From assembly GCA_029858755.1 (NCBI GenBank), contig JAOUEK010000017.1, positions 1 through 12,801 on the forward strand: a stretch of DNA of 12,801 nt. Direction: 5' to 3'. Origin of the DNA: Thermoleophilia bacterium. Lineage in GTDB: Bacteria; Actinomycetota; Thermoleophilia; Gaiellales; Gaiellaceae. The notes below the pieces were generated by a model that was given only the letters and a program-made list of their open reading frames with translations, was not told the DNA's origin and did not search any database. Below are positions 1,119 to 11,740 of the stretch, piece after piece (position 1 is the stretch's first letter; every line of letters starts with the position of its first letter). A program made the translations under genes and the position numbers.

Positions 1119-1140
1119 CGGGCGGCCGGCGCCTCAGGGC
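1112..1140. terminator. Bidirectional hairpin between MMPL and site-2 protease genes
   Basis: Arms GCCCTGA (1112-1118) and TCAGGGC (1134-1140) are perfectly complementary, and an inner stem GGCG (1121-1124)/CGCC (1130-1133) closes a 5-nt loop. Only a two-base CG bulge interrupts an 11-bp stem. The left arm ends with the TGA stop of the plus-strand gene and the right arm begins with the stop of the minus-strand gene, so one hairpin ends both. There is no U-tract, as is common for high-GC hairpin terminators. Confidence 0.7.
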
Positions 1141-2294
1141 GTCGCCGTCGGTCCGGCCGCGTCGCCGCCGCGCCGCCGCTGCAGCCGGTCGGGAGCCGCG
1201 ATCTCGAGGGCCCGGGCGAGGTCGGTGATCGAGAGCAGCCCCACCAGCCGCCCCCCGTCGAGGACGAGCGCGCGGTGCACGACGTTCTCGCTCAGGGCGG
1301 CGAGGGCGTCGATCGCCCGGTCGTCCTCGGCGAGGACGGTGAGCTCGTCCAGGCCGATCACGCACTCGCGCACGCGGCGCGTGTCCCATTCGCCCCGCGG
1401 CACCTGCACGATGCGGCGGAAGGCGACGAGCCCGAGTACCCGGCCGCCGTCGAGCACCGGGTAGGTGGTGAAGCGCTCGCTCCAGGCGACGCGGTCGACG
1501 AGCTCGCCGATCGTCGCCTCCGCCGGGGCGGTCACCGGGTCTCGCACCATGAGGTCGCGGACACGGAGGTCGCCGAGCGCCTGCCGGGCGATCACGTACC
1601 GCGCCTCCGCGCTCGCCGCCTGCAGCAGGAACCAGCCGATGAAGGCCAGCCAGGCGCCGGAGAAGGTGCCCTGGAAGATGAAGAGCAGCAGCCCGCCGAC
1701 GATCATCGCGTAGCCGAGGGCACGCCCGATGCCAGCCGACAGGCGCGTCGCCGCCGCGAAGTCGCCCTTCACGTGCCAGAGGGTCGCGCGCAGCAGGCGC
1801 CCCCCGTCGAGCGGGAGCGCCGGGAGCAGGTTGAAGACGAGGAGGAGGAGGTTGATCCACCCGAGCCAGAAGACGACGCCGTCGACGCTCGCGGGCAGGT
1901 CGGCGACGAGCGCGACGAGCACGCAGGCGACGCCGATCGCGAGCGAGACGAGCGGCCCCGCGATCGCGATGCGGAACTCCGCGCCGGCGCTCGGGAACAT
2001 GCCCTTGAACTTGGCGACCCCGCCGAACAGCCAGAGGGTGATGCCCTCGATCTCCATCCCCTCCCGCCGCGCCCGGAGCGCATGGCCGAGCTCGTGAGCG
2101 AGCAGCGAGACGAAGAACACGGTCGCGGCGACGACACCCATGGCCACGTACGCCGCGTCGGAGAGGCCCGGGTTCTCGCTCGGGAAGACGCCGACGGTGA
2201 GCGTCCAGGCGATCAGCGCGAAGACCACCAGCCAGCTCCAGTTGACGCCGATCTCGACACCGGCGATCCGCCCGAGGCGAAGCGAGCTGTGCAC
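1134..2294 (-). CDS. Site-2 protease family (M50) membrane metalloprotease with two CBS domains
   Basis: Intramembrane zinc protease of the SpoIVFB/S2P type, predicted to cleave membrane-anchored regulators or clear membrane proteins. Numbered from the chosen start, the zinc motif is HELGH (His67, Glu68, His71) and the third ligand lies in NLLPALPLDGGR (Asp163, with Asn155). Several hydrophobic helices surround these, and a pair of CBS domains (about residues 244-369, beginning LRVRDLMVRDPVTAP) forms the cytoplasmic C-terminus; such domains often sense adenine nucleotides. I chose the GTG at 2294 because the family's N-terminus normally begins just before SLRLGRIAGVEIGVNWSW. An upstream start at 2372 would overlap yihY by 68 nt and add an unconserved stretch. 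A TAGCGT box lies 7 nt before the GTG, suggesting a leaderless transcript. The substrate is unknown. The preceding gene on this strand is yihY, 10 nt away. Confidence 0.93.
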   Translation of the reverse strand: MHSSLRLGRIAGVEIGVNWSWLVVFALIAWTLTVGVFPSENPGLSDAAYVAMGVVAATVFFVSLLAHELGHALRARREGMEIEGITLWLFGGVAKFKGMFPSAGAEFRIAIAGPLVSLAIGVACVLVALVADLPASVDGVVFWLGWINLLLLVFNLLPALPLDGGRLLRATLWHVKGDFAAATRLSAGIGRALGYAMIVGGLLLFIFQGTFSGAWLAFIGWFLLQAASAEARYVIARQALGDLRVRDLMVRDPVTAPAEATIGELVDRVAWSERFTTYPVLDGGRVLGLVAFRRIVQVPRGEWDTRRVRECVIGLDELTVLAEDDRAIDALAALSENVVHRALVLDGGRLVGLLSITDLARALEIAAPDRLQRRRGGDAAGPTATP

Positions 2295-2301
2295 GAGACC
2301 T

Positions 2302-2307
2302 ACGCTA
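2302..2307 (-). promoter_or_regulatory. Candidate -10 box of a leaderless promoter for the site-2 protease gene
   Basis: TAGCGT reads on the minus strand 7 nt before the GTG start at 2294, the distance expected if transcription begins at the start codon itself. No Shine-Dalgarno sequence precedes this GTG. The first three bases are also the TAG stop codon of yihY. No convincing -35 was found. Confidence 0.45.
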
Positions 2308-3360
2308 GCCTGCCCGAGGGTCGCCGGACTGCGGCTCATCACCGTCGTCGGGCCCGCCCTCGTGAGGCCCACCTCGGTCTTCGTCCCGCTCCTCGGGCGG
2401 AACCGCGACGAGGCCCCGGAGGACCGCGATCACCTTCTGCCCGATCGATGCCCCGGGCTCCCCGGAGTCCCCGTGGTCGCCCTCCCCACGCTCGAGCTCG
2501 TCGACCACGACGGGCAGGCCGGCCGCGGCGTGGGCGCCGAGCAGGAAGAGGCTCGACGACATGTAGACGAACACCAAGAAGGCGATCACCGCGCCGAGCG
2601 ACCCGTAGACGGCGTTGTAGTTGCCGAACGAGGAGAGGTAGACGCCGAACAGCATCTGCAGGATGGTGAAGGCGACGCCGACGGCGGCGGCGCTGGGCAG
2701 GATCACCCGATACGCGGGCCGCTCTGGGGTCGCCGGCACCACCCGGTAGAGGAACGCGACGGCGAGGAACGCGAGCACGGCCGGGACCAGGAAGCCGATC
2801 AGCCAGGTGAGCGCACCCGGCGGGATCCCGGCGCGCTCGAGCGCAGACGACGCATACGCCGTGACCATCCTCGAGCCCACGGCAAGCGCGGTCGAGAGCA
2901 GCAGGAAGACGCCCACGGCGAGCACGAGCAGGACGTCGACCAGCTTCCCGCGGACGAACGGCCGCGCGTGCACGACGCCCCAGGCCCGGTTGAGGGCGCC
3001 GCGGATGGCGGCCATCATCCCGCTCGCCGACCAGACGAGGCCGACGACGGCGACGAGACCGAGCGTGCTCTTGCCTCCCGTGACCCCTTCCAGCAGCTCC
3101 CGGACGCTCTGCTTGCCATCCTCGGTCAGTGGCACGTTGTCGATCACGAAGTCGATCACGTCCGCCTGGACGCCGGTCGTCCGCACCACGACCCCGAACA
3201 GGGCGGTGAGGACGATCACGAGCGGGAACACGGAGAACAGCACTCGATACGCGATGGCACCGGCAACCACGGGGCCGCCGTCGGCGTAGCCGCCCACGAC
3301 ACGTCCGACGAGACGGCCCGCGAGGGTGCCGATGCTGTAACTGCGCTCGTTCTCGCTCAC
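2305..3360 (-). CDS. YihY/BrkB family inner-membrane protein
   Basis: A 351-aa polytopic membrane protein of the YihY/virulence factor BrkB family, once misnamed ribonuclease BN; the molecular role is unsettled, with transport suggested. The N-terminal part GGPVVAGAIAYRVLFSVFPLVIVL is the conserved first helix (split here as GGPVVAGAIAYR and VLFSVFPLVIVL). About six hydrophobic segments follow, and the family signature GNYNAVYGSLGAVIAF lies before the last helix. The C-terminal roughly 60 residues are hydrophilic and strongly acidic (rich in Asp, Glu, Gly), a cytoplasmic tail longer than that of many homologues. The GTG start at 3360 has no ribosome-binding site but follows a CATGCT box by 6 nt. 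It lies 60 nt downstream of the peroxiredoxin stop, behind a hairpin, and 10 nt upstream of the protease start, so a yihY-protease pair is possible. Confidence 0.9.
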   Translation of the reverse strand: MSENERSYSIGTLAGRLVGRVVGGYADGGPVVAGAIAYRVLFSVFPLVIVLTALFGVVVRTTGVQADVIDFVIDNVPLTEDGKQSVRELLEGVTGGKSTLGLVAVVGLVWSASGMMAAIRGALNRAWGVVHARPFVRGKLVDVLLVLAVGVFLLLSTALAVGSRMVTAYASSALERAGIPPGALTWLIGFLVPAVLAFLAVAFLYRVVPATPERPAYRVILPSAAAVGVAFTILQMLFGVYLSSFGNYNAVYGSLGAVIAFLVFVYMSSSLFLLGAHAAAGLPVVVDELERGEGDHGDSGEPGASIGQKVIAVLRGLVAVPPEERDEDRGGPHEGGPDDGDEPQSGDPRAG

Positions 3361-3366
3361 ACCACG

Positions 3367-3372
3367 AGCATG
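3367..3372 (-). promoter_or_regulatory. Weak candidate -10 box for yihY
   Basis: CATGCT on the minus strand lies 6 nt before the GTG start at 3360, the same spacing as the better TANNNT boxes of other genes in this window. The first base departs from the consensus T, so this is tentative. Confidence 0.25.
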
Positions 3373-3377
3373 CCAGG

Positions 3378-3394
3378 CCGCCGCCCGGCGGCGG
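3378..3394 (-). terminator. GC-rich hairpin after the peroxiredoxin gene
   Basis: CCGCCG (3378-3383) pairs with CGGCGG (3389-3394) around a 5-nt loop, within a longer 8-bp inverted repeat. It lies 27 nt beyond the peroxiredoxin stop and just before the yihY start region, where it would separate the two transcripts. No U-tract. Confidence 0.5.
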
Positions 3395-3420
3395 ATCGGG
3401 CGCTCTCTTCCGCGCGCGCT

Positions 3421-4080
3421 CTAGCTGGGCTGCGGCACGATGCGGATGTAGGGCTTCGGCTCGCGCCAGCCGTCGGGCCAGATCTCGCGGGCCTCGTCGT
3501 TGGAGACCGAGCCGGCGATGATCACGTCGTCGCCCTGCTGCCAGTTCGCGGGCGTCGACACCTTGTGCTTCGCCGTCAGCTGCAGCGAGTCGATCACGCG
3601 CAGCACCTCGTCGAAGTTGCGCCCCGTCGTCATCGGGTAGACGAGGACGAGCTTGACCTTCTTGTCGGGGCCGATCACGAAGACGTTGCGCACCGTCTGG
3701 TTGTCGACCGCCGTCCGGTCGCCGGGATCGCCGGAGACGTCGGCGCCGAGCATCCCGTACAGCTTGGAGACGGTGAAGTCCGCGTCGCCGATGATCGGGT
3801 AGTTGGGCGCGTGCCCCTGCGTCTCCTCGATGTCGCGCGCCCACCCCTCGTGGTCGCCCGTCGAGTCGACCGAGAGGCCGATCACCTTCACGCCGCGGCG
3901 GTCGAACTCGGGCTTGATCTTGGCCATGTGGCCGAGCTCGGTCGTGCACACGGGCGTGAAGTCCTTGGGGTGCGAGAAGAGCACGGCCCACGAGTCGCCG
4001 ATCCACTCGTGGAAGTCGATCGGCCCCTCTGTCGTCTCGGCCTGGAAGTTCGGTGCCATGTCGCCGATGTGCAATGCCAT
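3421..4080 (-). CDS. 1-Cys peroxiredoxin (Prx6 subfamily)
   Basis: Cytoplasmic thiol peroxidase that reduces hydrogen peroxide, organic hydroperoxides and possibly phospholipid hydroperoxides. The active-site motif PKDFTPVC gives Thr42 and peroxidatic Cys45; His37 precedes it and Arg131 (TVRNVFVIG) is the likely catalytic arginine. Cys45 is the only cysteine in the 219 residues, so there is no resolving cysteine, and the length and C-terminal extension (STPANWQQGDDVII and after) fit the Prx6/1-Cys group rather than AhpC. The ATG at 4080 is preceded by AGGAGG with a 5-nt spacer, a strong ribosome-binding site. The gene is divergent from the secreted-protein operon and is followed by a hairpin. 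An external thiol or protein reductant is needed; none is encoded nearby. Confidence 0.96.
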   Translation of the reverse strand: MALHIGDMAPNFQAETTEGPIDFHEWIGDSWAVLFSHPKDFTPVCTTELGHMAKIKPEFDRRGVKVIGLSVDSTGDHEGWARDIEETQGHAPNYPIIGDADFTVSKLYGMLGADVSGDPGDRTAVDNQTVRNVFVIGPDKKVKLVLVYPMTTGRNFDEVLRVIDSLQLTAKHKVSTPANWQQGDDVIIAGSVSNDEAREIWPDGWREPKPYIRIVPQPS

Positions 4081-4119
4081 CGCAGCCTCCTCTCGCGGTC
4101 GGTGCCAGCGTCGTCCGAC

Positions 4120-4125
4120 ACCTTA
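4120..4125 (-). promoter_or_regulatory. Candidate -10 box for the peroxiredoxin gene
   Basis: TAAGGT reads on the minus strand about 40 nt before the ATG. It lies next to a short AT-rich patch (about 4123-4140) that stands out in this GC-rich DNA. No recognisable -35 was seen, and I could not assign an operator. Confidence 0.35.
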
Positions 4126-4201
4126 CTTCATTTTCGATAGCTTCGGCTTCGCTCCATGCCAGGCCTCGCCGGTCGATCCCAGCCGCGCCCGCCGGCGCCG
4201 C

Positions 4202-4258
4202 GGAACGCTGCGCCGACCGCGCACGTCTCCGGCGCTCTCGCAGGCCGGGGGGTAATAT
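4202..4258 (+). promoter_or_regulatory. Candidate promoter elements upstream of the secreted-protein operon
   Basis: Two alternatives are visible. GGAAC (4202-4206) and CGTC (4224-4227), 17 nt apart, resemble an ECF-sigma promoter, though the spacing is about one base longer than usual. TAATAT (4253-4258) is a good -10 for a housekeeping sigma factor but has no clear -35. Either would leave a long leader (about 160-190 nt) before the first gene at 4427. Confidence 0.3.
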
Positions 4259-4330
4259 CCCGAAGGGGCGATCGGCGGAACACCGGATGCCTGCTGGTCC
4301 CGCGGTGACGAGGATCACCCGCATGGAGAA

Positions 4331-4365
4331 CGGATGCGAGCGAGTCCACCGCTCGACGAGATCCG
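4331..4365 (+). promoter_or_regulatory. Hairpin in the 5' leader of the secreted-protein operon
   Basis: CGAGCG (4337-4342) pairs with CGCTCG (4350-4355) around a 7-nt loop, and an outer stem CGGAT (4331-4335)/ATCCG (4361-4365) extends it across an internal loop. A smaller dyad GGTGA/TCACC lies just upstream (about 4304-4319). The structure ends about 60 nt before the operon's first start codon. It matches no riboswitch class I know; it may be a leader or stability element. Confidence 0.4.
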
Positions 4366-4426
4366 ATGTGTCAATGGCGTCGTCACCGTCTCACCGGTGT
4401 CGACCCGAGGAGCAAAGGAGCAACCG

Positions 4427-4906
4427 ATGAGACGACCGATACTGATCGTCGCCGTCGCGGTGGTGGCGATCGCCGCCGCGGCCGTGGTCTGGGCCCAGAC
4501 GCCCGGGGAGACGCCCTTCCCGTCGCCGAAGGTCGAGCAGCTGTTCGTCTCGGCACAGACGGTGACGGCGGCCGGGCACAGCCTGGGCGCAGGAGCGCTC
4601 AACAACCGCTTCGCCCGCGGAGAGACCGTGGTCTTCCAGGTCTTCGGCGGTCAGAACGAGACCGGCCAGACGATCACCGACAAGGACGTCAAGTACGCCT
4701 ATGTCGCAGTCCCCGGGCAGCCCAACCTGAAGCTCCGCTACTCGGCCGCGAGCACGGCCTTCCCGTGGACGGCCTCGTGGACGATCCCCGCGACCTACCC
4801 GACCGGGCTCGTCCCGTTCAAGGTGCGGTTCCGGACGCTCACGAAGCAGTACGGCAACTTCGTCCAGATCCCCGTCACCAGCGCCCAGTTGACCGTGACG
4901 GGCTGA
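4427..4906 (+). CDS. Small secreted Ig-like protein A (unknown function)
   Basis: I do not recognise a named family. The ATG at 4427 follows AAAGGAG with a 6-nt spacer; the frame is open back to 4334, but that stretch is leader. The 159-aa product starts with MRRP and a long hydrophobic run (residues 5-22), a signal peptide with likely cleavage near VWA-Q (residue 23), so it is exported. The mature part has beta-rich character and the segment WTASWTIPATYPTGLVPFKV, typical of the last strands of bacterial Ig-like domains. It has no cysteine. It is a paralogue of the next gene: both have N-N-x(0-1)-F-x-R-G-E-x-V-V-F-x-x-(F/W)-G, V-P-G-x(3)-L-K-L and W-T-A-x-W-x-I-P-A-x-Y-P-x-G in order. It is the first of three co-directional genes for secreted proteins. 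A structural, binding or envelope role is inference. Confidence 0.85.
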   Translation: MRRPILIVAVAVVAIAAAAVVWAQTPGETPFPSPKVEQLFVSAQTVTAAGHSLGAGALNNRFARGETVVFQVFGGQNETGQTITDKDVKYAYVAVPGQPNLKLRYSAASTAFPWTASWTIPATYPTGLVPFKVRFRTLTKQYGNFVQIPVTSAQLTVTG

Positions 4907-4949
4907 GGGAGAGGCAGAGACCATGAACGCTGACAACCGGAGGTCCCCG

Positions 4950-5480
4950 ATGAGATGGCTCGTCCTGACAGTCGGGCTCGTGATCGCGATCGGCGCCGCG
5001 GCGTCGTCCGCGCTCGCCGCCCAGGACCAGACACCGGCGAAGCAGGACGTGTTCCTCTACGTGGACACCGTCAACGGCAGCCGCCCGGTCGGGGTCGCAC
5101 CGCGGCCGTTAAGCTGCACGCAGACGAACAACTTCAAGCGCGGTGAGCAGGTCGTGTTCCGCGCCTGGGGCAGCGAGGCGGCGACCGGCGACATCCTCTC
5201 CACCGAGAACGTGAAGAGCGGGGTCGTCCAGGTGCCCGGCGTCGCGGAGCCCCTGAAGCTCAACTGGGGTGCGCACGGGGCTACCTCGAACCGCGTCTGG
5301 TTCTGGACGGCGGCCTGGGTGATCCCGGCCGACTATCCGCTCGGAACCGCGAACGTCAAGGTGGTGATCGAGACCGAGGCGGGCAAGTTCGCACGCTACG
5401 ACTACTCGCTGACCGTGACCCCGAGCTCTGCGCTCAAGAAGGGCCTGAAGGCGAAGAGGGCCACGGCCCGCAAGAAGTGA
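4950..5480 (+). CDS. Small secreted Ig-like protein B, paralogue of protein A
   Basis: Function unknown. I chose the ATG at 4950 because GGAGG lies 6 nt before it and it puts MRW directly ahead of the hydrophobic core; an in-frame ATG at 4923 would add nine residues and also follows a purine-rich stretch. The 176-aa product has a signal peptide cleaved near ALA (residue 23). The mature region aligns along its length with protein A, sharing NNFKRGEQVVF, VPGVAEPLKL and WTAAWVIPADYPLG, and is again Ig-like. Differences are a single cysteine (Cys56, just before the shared NN motif) and a strongly basic C-terminal tail (KKGLKAKRATARKK) that could contact acidic wall polymers or nucleic acid. The gap to the upstream stop is 43 nt and to the next gene 36 nt, consistent with one operon. 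Confidence 0.85.
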   Translation: MRWLVLTVGLVIAIGAAASSALAAQDQTPAKQDVFLYVDTVNGSRPVGVAPRPLSCTQTNNFKRGEQVVFRAWGSEAATGDILSTENVKSGVVQVPGVAEPLKLNWGAHGATSNRVWFWTAAWVIPADYPLGTANVKVVIETEAGKFARYDYSLTVTPSSALKKGLKAKRATARKK

Positions 5481-5516
5481 TCGCAACGTGACCCCGGCTG
5501 ACGAAAGGAACTCTCG

Positions 5517-7088
5517 ATGATCCGCTCATTCCCGAGGACGAGGCCCTGGAGGCTTGTCCTTGCCGGTGCGGCGGCGGTCGCGACCGTGCTGCTCGTGCAG
5601 TCCACCGCCCTCGCCGACCCGACCCCCGTGCCGACACCCGTCGTCCCGGGGGCGCCGGGCCTCCCCGGCCCCGTCACCGACCTCGGCAAGCCGGGCGACT
5701 CGATGACGACGCTGAAGGCGACGCCGGACGTCGCCCCGGCCGGCAAGAAGATGACGCTCACGGGTACCGGGCTCCCGGCGAACAAGGACGTCACGATCGT
5801 CTGGATGACGGCGAGCGTCCGCTGGGTGCTCGATCCCAAGCCCGACAGCCTCGACTACGTCGGCCGCAAGGTCGACAAGTTCGGGGTCAAGCTGGCGACG
5901 GCGCGGACGGATGCGAACGGCGCGCTCAAGGCCGACCTGAAGGTCCCGGTCGACTTCGGCGGGTTGCACGACATCTACGCCGTCGTGGACGGAATCCAGG
6001 TCGCCAAGGGCGGCTTCCTCGTCGAGCGGGTGGTCACGATCAGCCCGAAGCGTGGCCCGGTCGGCACGCCGATCACGGTCACGGTGCAGGGCATGGGCTC
6101 GCCGACCTACGAGAGCGTCGGCGGCGTGCTCTGGGACAACCGCTTCACGGGTTCGGTCTCGGCCAACACCACGCGCGGCCTCGCGACCTTCAAGATCCGC
6201 GCAGCCGGGCCGCCCGGCACGCACTGGATCGAGCTCGGCGGGTCGAGCCACACCGTCCCGTACCTGAACATGGTGCAGTCGCCCGTGCCGTGGACGGACG
6301 GGCACCGGCTCAAGTTCACCGTGACGAAGGATGCCGGCGCACCGCCGAACCGGCTCGAGTGGCCGAAGCAGATCAAGCCCACGATCGACGCGAAGACGAC
6401 GCTCCTCGAGGCGAACCTCGACCCGAAGAGCACCGCGACCGTGAAGCTCGACTCCACGAGCGGCCCGATCCTCTCGAAGGTCAGCCTCACCGCCGCAGGG
6501 CTCGTGCCGAGCGCGCCGGTCGACCTCGTCTGGTCGACGGTCGTCGGCAACCGCGTCAACTGCACCGGGACGTGCTGGAACTTCGTCTCGGTTCCGCTGG
6601 GCCGTGGCACGGCCGGCGCCGACGGGTCGCTCACCAGCGCGGTGACGATCCCCGACGGGCTGGGCGGCTGGCACGTGATCCAGGTCGTGCAGGCGGGCCA
6701 GGTGAAGGCGCAGGTGCCGTACTTCGTGAAGCGGACCTTCGTCAAGGCACCCAAAGTGGTGAAGGCGGGTCAGCCGTTCATCGTCGAGCTCAAGGGCGTC
6801 GGCTGGACCCAGATCGACAACACGGTGGCCGTCACGTACGACAACGCGTACATCGGCTACGCGTGCGGGTTCAACTCGAACGGGTACGTCCGCATCCAGC
6901 TCTTCGCGACCGGGGAGCCGGGAACGCACCTGATCGACCTCTATCCGCTGCTCTACACGCAGCAGCCGGCGTACCCCTACTCGCAGCTCGGCATGGTGCC
7001 GCTGCTCGGGTGGGCGACCGATGCGCCGGGCCTGTCGGCAGGCTACGAGCTGCCGGCGTTCCGCCTGGCGATCAAGGTCGTCAAGTAG
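5517..7088 (+). CDS. Large secreted protein with two tandem Ig/TIG-like modules (unknown function)
   Basis: A 523-aa exported protein. The ATG at 5517 follows GAAAGGAA with a 6-nt spacer. Signal peptide residues 1-33 end in ALA before a Pro-rich linker (PTPVPTPVVPGAPGLPGP). The rest is a tandem duplication: residues about 76-240 match 318-475, with LTGTGLPANKDVTIVW against LTAAGLVPSAPVDLVW, DFGGLHDI against GLGGWHVI, FLVERVVT against YFVKRTFV, and PPGTHWIEL against EPGTHLIDL. Each module looks like two beta-sandwich (Ig/IPT-TIG-like) domains. Only the second module has cysteines: Cys349 and Cys353 (NCTGTC) and Cys450. No membrane anchor, sortase motif or enzyme motif is visible, so it is probably free or wall-associated. 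It is the last gene of the secreted operon and its stop lies 4 nt from the convergent MMPL stop. Function is not known to me. Confidence 0.88.
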   Translation: MIRSFPRTRPWRLVLAGAAAVATVLLVQSTALADPTPVPTPVVPGAPGLPGPVTDLGKPGDSMTTLKATPDVAPAGKKMTLTGTGLPANKDVTIVWMTASVRWVLDPKPDSLDYVGRKVDKFGVKLATARTDANGALKADLKVPVDFGGLHDIYAVVDGIQVAKGGFLVERVVTISPKRGPVGTPITVTVQGMGSPTYESVGGVLWDNRFTGSVSANTTRGLATFKIRAAGPPGTHWIELGGSSHTVPYLNMVQSPVPWTDGHRLKFTVTKDAGAPPNRLEWPKQIKPTIDAKTTLLEANLDPKSTATVKLDSTSGPILSKVSLTAAGLVPSAPVDLVWSTVVGNRVNCTGTCWNFVSVPLGRGTAGADGSLTSAVTIPDGLGGWHVIQVVQAGQVKAQVPYFVKRTFVKAPKVVKAGQPFIVELKGVGWTQIDNTVAVTYDNAYIGYACGFNSNGYVRIQLFATGEPGTHLIDLYPLLYTQQPAYPYSQLGMVPLLGWATDAPGLSAGYELPAFRLAIKVVK

Positions 7089-7092
7089 GTCG

Positions 7093-9336
7093 TCACATCG
7101 GTCGAGGCGGGGGCGGCGCTCCGGTGCCGCGCCCGCTCTCGTGCGAAAGGGCCGGATCGCCGACGAGGAGGGGCGAGGGCGCGACCCTGAGCACCCGCGC
7201 CATGCGGGCGGGTAGCCACCAGTTGTAACGTCCGAGGACGGCCATCAGCGAGGGGACGAGCGCCATGCGCACGATCGTCGCGTCGATCAGCACGGCGAGC
7301 ATGAGCCCGATCCCCAGCTCCTGCAGGGCGGCGACGCCGCCGAGCACGAACCCGAGGAACGCCGCGATCATGATCGCCGCCGCGGCCGTGATGATGCGCC
7401 CGGTGCGCTCGAGGCCGTGCGCCACCGCCCGCCTGTTCTCCGGCACATGGTCCCAGGACTCCCTCATCCTCGAGACGAGGAAGACCTCGTAGTCCATCGA
7501 GAGGCCGAAGAGCGTCGCGAAGAGGAGGATCGGGATCCACCCGTCCACCGCTCCCGTCTGCTCCAGTCCGACGAGCCCCGCGCCGACCCCCCACTGCGCC
7601 ACGGCGACGAGCAGGCCGCAGGCGGCAGCGACCGAGAGCAGGTTGAGGAGCACCGCCTTCAGCGGCAGCAGCAATGAGCGGAACGTCCGCAGCAGCACGA
7701 CGAAGGTCAGCGTGAGCACGGCGGCCACGAGCCACGGGAGCGCGGCGTACGCCCGATCGAGGAAGTCGACGCCCTGCGGGGGCGCTCCGCCCGCCTGGAC
7801 CGTGACGCCTGCCTGGAACCGCGCGCCCGGGATCAGCTCGCCGCGGATCCGCCGCACGAGGCGCTGCGACGACGGGTCGCCGTACTCGTGCCGCCCGGCC
7901 ACGATCACCCGTGCGTAGCGACCACTCTCGTCGACGTACGGCGACTTGCGCCCGGAGGCTACGACGGCGACCTCCGGCTCTCCGAAGAGCGCGTCGGCGA
8001 GCCGGTCGATCGCCTCGCGCGTCGGCCCGGTGTCGACGGCCTGCGGCCGCCCGGCGTCGACGACGATGTGCGTCGGCGTCACGGCTCCGGGGCCGACGCT
8101 GTCGCGGAGGAGCGCGAGGCCACGCGAGGACTCGAGGGAGGACGGGATGCCCGAGATGGAGCCCGGCGTGAGCTGGATCGCGAGCAGCGGCGCCGCCGCG
8201 GCGAGCAGCACGGCCGTGCCGCCGAGCAGGAAGGGCCACGGGCGACGCATGATCGCCCGGGCGAGCCGCGCCCAGAGCCCCCGGTCGACCGCCGCCGCGT
8301 CGCGGGGCTCCGGGAGCGTCGACACGTGGCGCCCGCGGGCGAGGTCGCCGAGCGCGATCCCTCGCGCACCCCGCGTGCCGAGGAACGAGAGCAGCACGGG
8401 CTGCAGCGTGAGCGCGGCGACGATCGACGCGAGCGGGATGAGGACGCCGGCGATGCCCAGCGAGCGGATGAACGGCACGGGGATCAGCGTGAGCAGCGCC
8501 AGCCCGATCGCCACGGCCGTCGCCGAGGCGATCACGGCGCGCCCCGCGGTCGCCATCGTGCGCACGATCGCCTCGTCCCGCGGGTGGCCGCGGGCGACCT
8601 CCTCACGAAACCGGTAGACGACGAGCAGCGAGTAGTCGATCGCCAGGCCGAGCCCGATCAGCTCCACGACGTTCGTGACGTAGGCGACCATCGCCACCGG
8701 GTGGGCCAGCGCCCAGAGGGCGACCAGCGCGGCACTGATCGTGCAGGCGGCGACGGCGACGGGGACGAGGACGGCGAAGGACACCCCGAGCAGCGCGAGC
8801 AACACGAGCAGCGCGATCGGGAGGGCGATCGCCTCGCCACGACGGAGGTCCGAGGCGAACACGGGGTCGAGGTCGCGCTGGATCGCCGGCGGCCCGGTGA
8901 CCACGGCGGGAGGCTGGCCGGGCTCGTCGAGCGCGCGGCGGAGGTCGTCGGCGTACCCCTTCGCGCGCTGCAGGTCGAGCCGGGTCGCGACCGTGCCGTA
9001 GAGGACGCCCGCACCGCTCTGGAGCTCGCCGGCCCTGGCCGTCGGGATCGCCTCGGCCACGCGCTCCAGCCGCCGCTGCTGCTCGCGCTGCACCCGCCGG
9101 TCGCCGGGGCGGGGCACGCTGACGACGACGGTGAAGGTACCGTCGGTGCGCTCCCCGAACCCGCGCTCGAGGAGCGTTGCGGCTCGATCCGACTCGGTGC
9201 CGGGCACCGCGAACGAGTTGGAGAGCAGCGCCGGCAGCCGCTGCGAGGCGACGACGCCGCCGGCCAGGAGGGCGAGGGCGAGCCCGAGGACGAGGAGCCG
9301 GAAGCGAAGGACTGCGCGGGTCCACCGCTCGAGCAC
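7093..9336 (-). CDS. MMPL/RND family transporter, complete
   Basis: A 747-aa inner-membrane transporter of the MmpL type, complete in this window. An N-terminal helix (residues 13-30) leads to an external porter domain, then a helix bundle (about 168-320), a cytoplasmic linker, a second helix and porter domain (about 367-530), and a second bundle (about 533-700). Both proton-relay helices are present: GLAIDYSLLVVYRFREE (Asp234-Tyr235) and GLSMDYEVFLVSRMRE (Asp615-Tyr616). The tail is Pro/Gly-rich. Such proteins export lipids or hydrophobic molecules using the proton gradient; the substrate is not predictable here. The GTG start at 9336 lacks a ribosome-binding site but sits 6 nt after TAGGCT, suggesting a leaderless message. 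Its similarity to the partial MMPL at the left edge is at family level. It is divergent from the cytochrome gene. Confidence 0.95.
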   Translation of the reverse strand: MLERWTRAVLRFRLLVLGLALALLAGGVVASQRLPALLSNSFAVPGTESDRAATLLERGFGERTDGTFTVVVSVPRPGDRRVQREQQRRLERVAEAIPTARAGELQSGAGVLYGTVATRLDLQRAKGYADDLRRALDEPGQPPAVVTGPPAIQRDLDPVFASDLRRGEAIALPIALLVLLALLGVSFAVLVPVAVAACTISAALVALWALAHPVAMVAYVTNVVELIGLGLAIDYSLLVVYRFREEVARGHPRDEAIVRTMATAGRAVIASATAVAIGLALLTLIPVPFIRSLGIAGVLIPLASIVAALTLQPVLLSFLGTRGARGIALGDLARGRHVSTLPEPRDAAAVDRGLWARLARAIMRRPWPFLLGGTAVLLAAAAPLLAIQLTPGSISGIPSSLESSRGLALLRDSVGPGAVTPTHIVVDAGRPQAVDTGPTREAIDRLADALFGEPEVAVVASGRKSPYVDESGRYARVIVAGRHEYGDPSSQRLVRRIRGELIPGARFQAGVTVQAGGAPPQGVDFLDRAYAALPWLVAAVLTLTFVVLLRTFRSLLLPLKAVLLNLLSVAAACGLLVAVAQWGVGAGLVGLEQTGAVDGWIPILLFATLFGLSMDYEVFLVSRMRESWDHVPENRRAVAHGLERTGRIITAAAAIMIAAFLGFVLGGVAALQELGIGLMLAVLIDATIVRMALVPSLMAVLGRYNWWLPARMARVLRVAPSPLLVGDPALSHESGRGTGAPPPPRPM

Positions 9337-9459: not shown

Positions 9460-10251
9460 ATGGGGTCGTCCACCGCCCGGCGCAGGCGCTCTCTGGCGCG
9501 TGCGGCCGCGCTGGGCTGCGGAGCGCTGCTCACCGGCATCCTGGCCACCGGCGGGGCCGGCGGCACGAGCGCGCCGTCCGCCGGGAGCCCCGACCGGGGT
9601 CGCACCGTGTACCTGACGAGAGGCTGTGGCGGCTGTCACGACGCGAGCCCGGTGGGCGACGAACGGCCGGCGGGCCCCAAGCTCGAGGTGAAGGCGATGA
9701 CGCGCAACGCCAGGGCCGCCGGCCGGGCGCTCGGGCCGTACGTCCTCGAGTCGATCGTCGCACCGCGGGCGTTCGCCGTCCCCGGGTACGTCAGCGGCGC
9801 GATGCCCTCCTACGCGCAGCTCTCCACACGGGAGCTCGAGGACCTCGTCTCGTACCTGATCGGCGCGCCGTTCGCGGCCACGCCGGCAGCACGGATCCCC
9901 AAGCGGCCGGTCGCGGCCTGCGACGCGAGTGCACGCTGCAGGAGCACCGTCGCCCGCTGGCGCCGCGTCGCCTCGCTGCCGGCGTCGGCCGTTCCCGGCG
10001 CGAAGATCACGGCGGCCGCCGACTGCCTCACCTGCCACCGGTACGCGGGGAGCGGGCCGAAGGCGACGACCGCGCCGGACCTCACACGTCAGGCCCGTCG
10101 CAAGCGAACGGTCGCCTGGCTCGTCGCCAAGCTCCGCTGCCCCGACTGCCGGACGCCGGCCTCCGGGATGCCCTCGTACGAGGCGCTCGGCACGGCCAAC
10201 CTGCGCCGGGTGGCGATCTTCCTGCGGGCGTCACGCGGCGTGCAGCGCTAG
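9460..10251 (+). CDS. Exported di-haem cytochrome c
   Basis: A 263-aa electron-transfer protein outside the cytoplasmic membrane. An Arg-rich N-terminus (RRRRSLAR) and hydrophobic stretch (about residues 15-30) form a signal peptide or membrane anchor. Two haem c attachment sites are present, CGGCH (56-60) and CLTCH (189-193), each followed by a likely axial Met in a repeated motif, GAMPSYAQLS (Met115) and SGMPSYEALG (Met237), so it is two fused class-I-like domains. The second domain has an extra CPDC pair (227-230) followed by Arg instead of His, and the linker holds Cys154 and Cys160. The frame is open far upstream, but the ATG at 9460 is chosen because it immediately precedes the signal peptide and follows a TAGGAT box by 7 nt. 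No oxidase or dehydrogenase partner is encoded nearby, so its electron donor and acceptor are unknown. Confidence 0.92.
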   Translation: MGSSTARRRRSLARAAALGCGALLTGILATGGAGGTSAPSAGSPDRGRTVYLTRGCGGCHDASPVGDERPAGPKLEVKAMTRNARAAGRALGPYVLESIVAPRAFAVPGYVSGAMPSYAQLSTRELEDLVSYLIGAPFAATPAARIPKRPVAACDASARCRSTVARWRRVASLPASAVPGAKITAAADCLTCHRYAGSGPKATTAPDLTRQARRKRTVAWLVAKLRCPDCRTPASGMPSYEALGTANLRRVAIFLRASRGVQR

Positions 10252-10271: not shown

Positions 10272-10292
10272 ACCGGGCGGCCGCCGCCCGGT
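10272..10292. terminator. Perfect hairpin between the convergent cytochrome and lyase genes
   Basis: ACCGGGCGG (10272-10280) and CCGCCCGGT (10284-10292) form a perfect 9-bp stem with a 3-nt loop. It starts 21 nt after the cytochrome stop and its last base is the final base of the lyase stop codon, so it can end both transcripts. No U-tract. Confidence 0.7.
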
Positions 10293-11695
10293 CAGGCCCG
10301 GCCCGCCGCGCGCCACGTCGTGGCCGAGCCTTCAAGCATCGGCGTGAGCGGCTCGAAGCGGGCCTGGAAGAACCGCAGGTGGGCGGGCTCGTACGTCATC
10401 CTTAGCCCCGACAGTCCCTCCCGCAGCTCGTGCACGGCGATCACCGTTTCGGCGACGTAGGTGAGGTGCTCCTGCGTGTACACGCGGCGGGGGATCGTGA
10501 GCCGCACGAGCTCGAGCCCGTCGTACGGCTCGTCGCCGTGCTGGCCGGAGACGATCCCGCGCTCCATCGACCGCACCCCGCCCTCGAGGTACAGCGCTGC
10601 AGCGAGCGCCTGCGCCGGGAACTCAGCCTGCGGGACGTGCGGCAGGAACCGCTTGGCGTCGAGGAACACGGCGTGCGCGCCCACGGGCACCACGATCGGC
10701 ACGCCCGCGTCCAGCAGGAGCCCGCCCAGGTACGCGGCCTGCTCGACCTCATGGCGCACCATGGCCTCGTCGGCCGACTCACGGATCCCCTGCGCGAGCG
10801 CCTCCATGTCGTGCCCCGCGATGCCGCCGTAGTGGGGGAAGCCCTCGTAGACGACGACCAGCTCCTTGAGCCGCTCGGCCAGCTCGTCGTCGTTGACGGC
10901 GACGAAGCCGCCGATCGGGACGAAGTGGTCCTTCTTCGAGGAGAAGACGGCCCCGTCCACCTGGTCGGCGATCTCGCGGATGATCTCGGGGAGAGGCCGG
11001 CCCGCATGGCCGGGCTCGCGGTCCTTCACGAACACCGCGTTCTCGGAGATCCGGGTCGCGTCGAGGACGAAGGGGACGCCGTGCTCGCGGGTCAGCGCGC
11101 GCACCGCGCGCAGGTTGTCGAGCGAGAACGGCTGGCCGCCCGCCATGTTGAGGCAGGCCTCCTGGCGGACGAACGCGACGCCCTCGGGCTCGGCGACGGT
11201 CAGCACGCGCTCGAGCGCGGCCAGGTCGATGTCGCCCTTGAACGGCGCCGTCGACTCGGGGTCGCTCGCCTCGGGCACGGCCACGTCGACCCACGTGCCG
11301 CCGGCGAGCACGACGTGCTCGCGCGACGTGGTGAAGTAGAGGTTCGAGGGGACGAGCAGGCCCGGTCGCACGAGCACCTGCGAGAGCAGGTGCTCGGCGC
11401 CTCTCCCCTGGTGGGTGGGGATCACGTGCCGCCACCCGTAGACGTCGTGGACGGCCGCCTCCAGCCGGAAGAAGCTCCGCGACCCCGCGTACGCCTCGTC
11501 GCCGAGCTCCATCGCCGCCCGCTGCTCCTGCGAGAGCGCCGACGTGCCGCTGTCGGTGAGCAGGTCGACGAAGACGTCCTCGGAGCGCAGGAGGAAGGTG
11601 TTGTACCCGGCCTCGGCGAGCGCCCGGCGCCGGTGCTCGCGGTCACGTAGCTCGATCGGCTCGACGACCTTGATCTTCCACGGCGGCGCCCGCAT
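10292..11695 (-). CDS. Tyrosine phenol-lyase/tryptophanase family PLP enzyme, TPL-like active site
   Basis: Cytoplasmic PLP-dependent beta-eliminating lyase (fold type I) that splits an aromatic amino acid into phenol or indole plus pyruvate and ammonia. From the ATG at 11695 it has 467 aa, normal for the family. Visible residues: Tyr69 (GDEAYAGS), Asp212 and Arg215 (VLDATR), PLP-binding Lys255 (SSKKD), and Arg in RLTIPRRVY for the substrate carboxylate. Motifs that separate the subfamilies favour tyrosine phenol-lyase: FTTSR (Thr122, equivalent to TPL Thr124) and GVRSMERG (Met377, Arg379, equivalent to Met379/Arg381), where E. coli tryptophanase has Val and Ile, plus paired Phe in LRFFQARF. 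Starts at 11704 and 11731 are possible; GGAG about 10 nt upstream supports 11695. Automatic annotation may call it tryptophanase. It stands alone, divergent from the cupin, with no amino-acid transporter in view. Confidence 0.93.
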   Translation of the reverse strand: MRAPPWKIKVVEPIELRDREHRRRALAEAGYNTFLLRSEDVFVDLLTDSGTSALSQEQRAAMELGDEAYAGSRSFFRLEAAVHDVYGWRHVIPTHQGRGAEHLLSQVLVRPGLLVPSNLYFTTSREHVVLAGGTWVDVAVPEASDPESTAPFKGDIDLAALERVLTVAEPEGVAFVRQEACLNMAGGQPFSLDNLRAVRALTREHGVPFVLDATRISENAVFVKDREPGHAGRPLPEIIREIADQVDGAVFSSKKDHFVPIGGFVAVNDDELAERLKELVVVYEGFPHYGGIAGHDMEALAQGIRESADEAMVRHEVEQAAYLGGLLLDAGVPIVVPVGAHAVFLDAKRFLPHVPQAEFPAQALAAALYLEGGVRSMERGIVSGQHGDEPYDGLELVRLTIPRRVYTQEHLTYVAETVIAVHELREGLSGLRMTYEPAHLRFFQARFEPLTPMLEGSATTWRAAGRA

Positions 11696-11740
11696 CCACC
11701 TCATGCTCCGTGTGGGGCTGCCGACGCGCATCCGCGGCCA

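Follow-up and report, generated by a model that had tools for sequence, protein, structure and literature searches.

What is the role of an operon that encodes only exported proteins? We addressed this question at three adjacent genes, designated g1, g2 and g3, which occupy positions 4427–7088 of a 12,801-nt stretch of DNA from a Thermoleophilia bacterium of the phylum Actinomycetota (assembly GCA_029858755.1, contig JAOUEK010000017.1), hereafter called the window. A first-pass annotation made from the sequence alone had described this trio as a set of secreted immunoglobulin (Ig)-like proteins and had suggested a surface layer, a matrix or a ligand-binding complex. We propose here, tentatively and with slightly less than even confidence in the explanation as a whole, that in Actinomycetota g2 and g3 form an exported disulfide heterodimer working with an MmpL3-like exporter of the MMPL family encoded immediately downstream. 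No publications on this locus were found among the matches listed in our search, the subscription literature lying mostly outside it.

Lone cysteines of g2 and g3

All three genes are located on the forward strand. The g1 (4427–4906) and g2 (4950–5480) genes encode exported proteins of 159 and 176 amino acids (aa), each consisting of a single Ig-like domain, and g3 (5517–7088) encodes an exported 523-aa protein with four Ig/MG-like domains in the order (A-B)x2. The open reading frame of g2 extends from 4923 to 5480, with a better start at 4950 that matches the database protein P0121. The genes are separated by only 43 bp (g1–g2) and 36 bp (g2–g3), and Shine-Dalgarno-like sites, AAAGGAG for g1 (4414–4420, +), GGAGGT for g2 (4939–4944, +) and AAAGGA for g3 (5504–5509, +), lie 5–7 nt upstream of the respective ATG codons. 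Each N terminus is strongly hydrophobic and continues into a signal-peptidase-like site, as judged by eye from hydropathy and motif, and beyond it the hydrophobicity remains low (Kyte-Doolittle 19-mer maximum of 1.23). The two small proteins are paralogous (36% identity, E 1e-14). Thus, the tight spacing, the export signals and the paralogy described in the first-pass annotation were all confirmed, as was the lack of a characterised family in this all-secreted unit, since neither Pfam nor NCBIfam returned a model above cut-off for g1, g2 or g3. A scan of the locus for promoters and terminators was uninformative.

The g1 protein contains no cysteine, g2 contains one (C56, codon at 5115–5117, +), and g3 contains three: C349 and C353 (6561–6575, +) and C450 (codon at 6864–6866, +), the last located in domain B2 within the motif GY[AG]CGFNS. 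The peptide-pattern scan for relatives was seeded partly on cysteines, with patterns including Cys349 or Cys450, so its biased cysteine counts were set aside and we relied on profile-found and word-based hits, the latter being the best 120 of 2687 for g3, of 384 for g2 and of 828 for a Deinococcus protein described below. At the profile-found loci, C450 was retained in all 78 g3 sequences covering it, the g2-type cysteine was kept in 75/75 domains, and g1-type domains were cysteine-free in 7/7. C349 and C353 were kept in 76 of 79 covering sequences and were lost together at the remaining three loci, where C450 remained. Every one of the 120 listed g2 relatives has exactly one cysteine after residue 28, including 35 apparent g1–g2 fusions of ~300 aa (29 of them aligned). 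Exactly three cysteines were found in 117 of the 120 listed close g3 relatives, the other three having four, and C450 was present in 241/241 listed g3 relatives, comprising these 120 and 121 of the Deinococcus type.

The Deinococcus type was identified on a plasmid of Deinococcus sp. D7000, which encodes a g3 relative (31.8% identity over 86%, E 1e-45) directly preceded by a 160-aa gene matching g2 (29%, E 1e-9, in a single comparison). We refer to such small exported Ig-like proteins of the g1/g2 type as S. The D7000 S and g3 proteins each carry a single cysteine in the whole chain, at the positions of C56 and C450, respectively, with C349 and C353 absent. D7000 g3 and its 120 best relatives all kept C450 (121/121) and all lacked C349 and C353 (121/121); the number of cysteines after residue 28 is exactly one in 115 of them, two in five and three in one. 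Five of these relatives were assigned to Trueperaceae or Deinococcales. The gene context of the Deinococcus type is that of one record, the D7000 plasmid, where integrase and transposase genes in the same stretch make a transfer of the S–g3 pair between phyla possible.

Unpaired cysteines are seldom retained in exported proteins. Together with the lone conserved cysteine in each chain, this makes it the simplest reading of the sequences that an interchain g2–g3 bond would be the old core, whereas C349–C353, the MMPL transporter and a further exported family encoded upstream (B) have so far been seen on the actinobacterial side only. Formation of a g2–g3 complex appears probable from conservation, and a disulfide as its link reasonably likely. 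The core would be a heterodimer held by one interchain disulfide from g2 Cys56 to g3 Cys450, whose lone cysteines pair with each other; g3 C349–C353, predicted from their joint retention and loss to form an intrachain disulfide, would close within the chain, and g1 would be a cysteine-free duplicate of g2. The proteins would be exported through their signal peptides and oxidised outside the membrane.

Alternatively, the lone cysteines might not pair with each other, instead forming disulfide homodimers or, in the case of Cys450 together with other conserved residues, a metal or thiol site for a ligand. Apart from the C349/C353 pair, each chain indeed has just one conserved cysteine, and several polar residues of g3 (H151, H386, N435 and N453) are also invariant in the 241 listed relatives. 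We nevertheless regard this alternative as fairly unlikely: S and g3 are found together, both by genome and by locus, and g1-type domains lack the cysteine, as expected if one S partner were dedicated to g3. The two histidines may moreover be structural, as they occur in alike GG-x-H motifs, one per g3 half. A thioester or Cys-Gln role for g2 C56 was considered separately and rejected, the Gln at +2 being missing in most of the acidimicrobial S sequences listed.

The MMPL transporter beside the trio

The gene immediately past g3, 4 bp from its end and convergent with it, encodes a 747-aa MMPL (RND) transporter (7093–9336, −) that matched PF03176 with 226.2 bits (cut-off 20.5). Its closest solved structure is MmpL3 (PDB 7nvh, E 5e-66), with which it aligns over nearly the full length, and its aiDYs and smDYe stretches pair with aiDYg and stDYe of MmpL3, so that both DY motifs are kept. 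Two intramembrane Asp-Tyr pairs constitute the proton relay of MmpL3, and from these motifs we infer that the window transporter would be proton-driven. The MmpL3 equivalog model NF052608 gave 232.9 bits, however, far below its cut-off of 1400.

The first-pass annotation had noted the lack of a transporter, which is correct for the operon itself but gives a misleading picture of the locus. We examined 82 loci (window included), representing all g3 profile hits with flanks, by searching them in six frames; a locus was considered to have room if it extended at least 1 kb upstream for S, at least 700 bp downstream for MMPL and at least 2.5 kb upstream for B. S was present upstream of g3 in all 73 loci with room. 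Among the 69 loci with room for MMPL, 64 have it right after g3 (63 convergent and one codirectional) and five lack it; this corresponds to 8/9 in the window's family and 56/60 elsewhere, and the median distance between profile edges is 53 bp. Only 2–8 MMPL matches, fragments counted, were detected per genome (12 genomes), and chance adjacency of g3 and MMPL would therefore be roughly 0.2–0.3% per gene by our estimate. The third companion, B, a family of exported ~200-aa proteins belonging to no curated family, was found upstream in 66 of the 70 loci with room, those lacking it being the window, L021, L234 and L235.

A tree of 53 MMPLs placed the 31 trio-linked proteins (6 from the window's family and 25 acidimicrobial) in one clade with support of 99/98, apart from 22 unlinked ones. 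For this tree, the rows of the window's family were kept, every second other trio row was taken and rows shorter than 560 aa were dropped; the outsiders were 22 of the unlinked matches with loci in the 12 examined genomes. The outsider nearest to the trio clade is an unlinked copy in genome G037. As far as tested, the trio-associated MMPL lineage thus appears to have stayed with the trio, with close cousins existing without it, and we consider a functional link between the trio and MMPL moderately likely.

The first-pass annotation had suggested looking for the trio in related genomes, where it proved to be conserved, yet patchily distributed. Within the window's family, 103 genomes were searched with the g3 profile and 9 matched (the window's own included), in 7 of 34 genera, with no match in the six other listed genomes of the window's genus. 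In one acidimicrobial family the profile matched 65 of 172 genomes, which all belong to just one of its 21 genera, and across the phylum it matched 4 of 396 sampled genomes, again including the window's own. The S profile retrieved the identical 9/103 genomes as g3 in the window's family, where B was found in 6 of the 9 trio genomes and in 0 of the other 94. Relatives in the peptide-pattern scan were mostly database records of Acidimicrobiaceae, Actinomycetes and Thermoleophilia drafts, many of them sampled from peat and permafrost (palsa, bog and fen); the hosts of the trio are little-studied soil and wetland bacteria.

This patchy spread would suit block transfer of a cassette within the Actinomycetota, in which MMPL travelled along as a general exporter with no joint function, as would the lack of MMPL beside the Deinococcus pair and at five of the 69 loci. 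Such a neighbourhood without shared function is nonetheless unlikely in our estimate, because gene order and tight spacing are common to the window's family and the acidimicrobial loci at 41–52% g3 identity, and no unlinked MMPL, all such rows being from the window's family, fell inside the trio clade.

Several variants of the locus were also recorded. L050 contains a tandem duplication of g3 (1580–5379) in one acidimicrobial-type genome. L235 of genome G594 holds a distant second S–g3 pair with no MMPL, B or C349/C353 nearby, resembling the Deinococcus form, and G594 carries an ordinary trio locus as well. At 16 loci of the peptide-pattern scan (e.g. L089, 7509–8453), a LysR-type regulator gene is located three genes upstream and is divergent from the B–S–g3 operon, its identity being Pfam-confirmed for one protein. 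At four loci in all (e.g. L022, 13716–14174; L023, 13816–14238), MMPL is adjoined by a small protein that carries a CHVW motif and looks exported; Pfam gave no hit for it at E up to 1. An S–g3 fusion in a single open reading frame at L031 was not counted, because an ambiguous residue is followed there by seemingly out-of-frame sequence. Phage origin was dismissed, as g3 had no match in phage records and a scan of viral contigs with the Deinococcus protein as query was empty.

The Ig-like fold and other genes of the window

The large protein was originally described as carrying duplicated Ig/TIG-like modules. The duplication and the Ig-like character stood: the two halves, each made of one A and one B module, are similar by BLASTP (26.5% over 200 residues, E 1e-17) and hhalign (99.6%), and the AlphaFold2 model of g3 is confident and all-beta (mean predicted local distance difference test score, pLDDT, of 88.6). 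The model together with profile alignment delimits a first half A1-B1 (residues 58–275, 5688–6341, +) and a second half A2-B2 duplicating it (residues 303–523, 6423–7085, +). The fold of g1 is taken from the model of a relative's natural g1–g2 fusion, which is likewise confident and all-beta (mean pLDDT 83.7). The TIG assignment was weak by itself, with PF01833 (IPT/TIG) reaching 18.9 bits at residues 173–208 of g3, short of its cut-off of 20.9, and matching 18 of 65 g3 relatives at E up to 0.1.

Searches with Foldseek and VIA returned many Ig, MG and FnIII matches to single domains, including complement C5, bacterial A2M and RbmA for g3, and a surface-layer chain, A2M, ICAM-1 and RbmA for the g1–g2 fusion. 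There was no whole-chain match, the top rows for g3 superposing poorly with a root-mean-square deviation of 17–20 Å, and profile searches against solved structures gave no significant match for g3, S or B. PF00207 (A2M) was not detected in window g3 and matched 1 of 65 g3 relatives weakly (E 0.0044). The MmpS family was absent from the 10 Pfam families matched by 50 S members at E up to 0.1, and no MmpS chain was among the Foldseek and VIA rows listed, which is not evidence of absence. Homology between S and the g3 modules was dropped as a candidate, hhalign giving at best 18% probability. Taken together, the models support an Ig-like fold for g1, g2 and g3 and favour no particular function.

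The earlier proposal of a surface layer, matrix or ligand-binding complex was upheld in part: the cysteine pattern suggests a physical complex, but nothing points specifically to a layer or matrix. If the trio formed a surface layer, matrix or adhesive complex outside the cell, MMPL would be an unrelated or loosely related envelope gene. The surface-layer chain among the fold matches might seem to favour this; however, the same lists hold complement, ICAM and antibody chains, so that the fold does not pick a function. Furthermore, no SLH or similar anchoring domain was detected by Pfam in g1, g2 or g3 at E up to 1, nor in the Pfam scans of 50 S members and 65 g3 relatives, and both the persistent MMPL linkage and the separate MMPL clade would be left unexplained. 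We consider this alternative improbable.

No model above cut-off was obtained for B (Pfam for 36 B proteins, NCBIfam for two), which gave sub-threshold Pfam hints only (AOC_like, DUF3224, META and BIg21), so that a barrel fold for B would be a guess. Other genes in the window include the C-terminal part of another MMPL transporter (3–1118, +; PF03176), truncated at the contig start, and an M50-type protease with CBS domains (1134–3360, −) whose open reading frame shares 68 bp with a gene of the BrkB family. A cytochrome c gene with two matched heme-binding stretches (9463–10251, +) adjoins the MMPL start, followed by a tyrosine phenol-lyase/tryptophanase-like enzyme (10292–11731, −; 594 bits against an equivalog cut-off of 720.7).

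Proposed lipid handoff and comparison with known systems

The combination of a conserved exported set with a lipid exporter suggests an undescribed cell-envelope machine. We propose that in Actinomycetota the proton-driven MmpL3-like pump would lift a lipid or another hydrophobic molecule to the outer face of the membrane, where the Ig-like complex, with B where present, would accept, hold or place it in the envelope. Such a handoff, whose lipid component is suggested by the neighbourhood only, is a possibility that we hold with some doubt, and the MMPL substrate and a contact between MMPL and the complex are guesses from the same neighbourhood. Possible lipoprotein sites, noted by eye in the G034 relatives of g2 and g3, would fit action at the membrane face. 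An extended version, in which a covalent heterodimer of old origin, present in both Actinomycetota and Deinococcota through descent or an early transfer, became in actinobacteria the extracellular receiver for an MmpL3-like exporter, seems to us rather unlikely.

Several observations weigh against a heterodimer coupled to MMPL. The transporter is not obligatory, since it is missing beside g3 at L021, L198, L234, L235 and L236 (5/69) and beside the D7000 S–g3 pair, and its convergent orientation in 63 of 64 cases means that it is not co-transcribed with g3. The counts of loci are not independent, the majority coming from one acidimicrobial genus, and S without g3 was checked in the window's family only. 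The 22 unlinked tree rows all represent MMPLs of the window's family and include none from acidimicrobial genomes, and the next-nearest MMPLs after the G037 copy occur in the trio-less genomes G002, G006 and G024. B was not found in the window's own, 80%-complete assembly. Finally, the g2 and g3 cysteines might form homodimers or bind something, and the generic Ig/MG fold matches point to no ligand.

Onward transfer of lipids from MMPL exporters outside the membrane is an open question even in mycobacteria, and a conserved exported complex that looks soluble and is linked to an MmpL3-like pump would make this handoff step accessible in a simple setting, in bacteria with little-known envelopes. 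The single-cysteine prediction lends itself to an inexpensive and sharp test. Should the S–g3 pair function in Deinococcota independently of MMPL, it would represent a novel family of exported proteins whose role is broader.

The complement and A2M MG domains and RbmA share with the trio an Ig/FnIII-type domain fold. Complement and A2M differ from it in having no shared architecture, g3 whole-chain TM-scores being at most 0.18 among the top rows. Closer parallels come from partners of MMPL exporters. MmpS is described as a beta-sandwich adaptor of mycobacterial MmpL4/5, being a single, membrane-anchored protein, and MmpL4/5 as possessing a long coiled-coil domain (PMC12803245, PMC12346298). 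PgfA is described as a periplasmic MmpL3 partner that interacts with a trehalose monomycolate (TMM) analogue, the MmpL3 accessory proteins known before it being given there as cytoplasmic or cytoplasm-facing (PMC9678360); we also compared TtfA and MSMEG_5308 (PMC9678360, PMC6593404). The PgfA–MmpL3 and MmpS–MmpL4/5 systems demonstrate that such exporter–partner pairings exist.

Our locus resembles the MmpS–MmpL4/5 system in that a small extracytoplasmic beta-sandwich protein is encoded beside an MMPL exporter. It differs in that the trio proteins have cleavable-looking signals, g3 is large with four domains, and the window MMPL is of MmpL3 core length with no long coiled-coil insertion of the MmpL4/5 type, so that a soluble carrier would be of use. 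The likeness to MmpL3–PgfA lies in the window MMPL being nearest to MmpL3 and in the interaction of PgfA with a lipid analogue, which is the role proposed for the trio. In contrast to PgfA, TtfA and MSMEG_5308, the trio proteins are Ig-like and their genes adjoin that of the exporter, and the MMPL is below the MmpL3 equivalog cut-off. The trio-bearing bacteria are not known to make mycolic acids. If our proposal is correct, an envelope machine built around an MMPL exporter would exist in bacteria other than the mycolic-acid producers, its partner proteins differing in type from MmpS, PgfA and TtfA. In functional terms, the locus would then represent a previously undescribed variant among the accessory systems of MMPL exporters.

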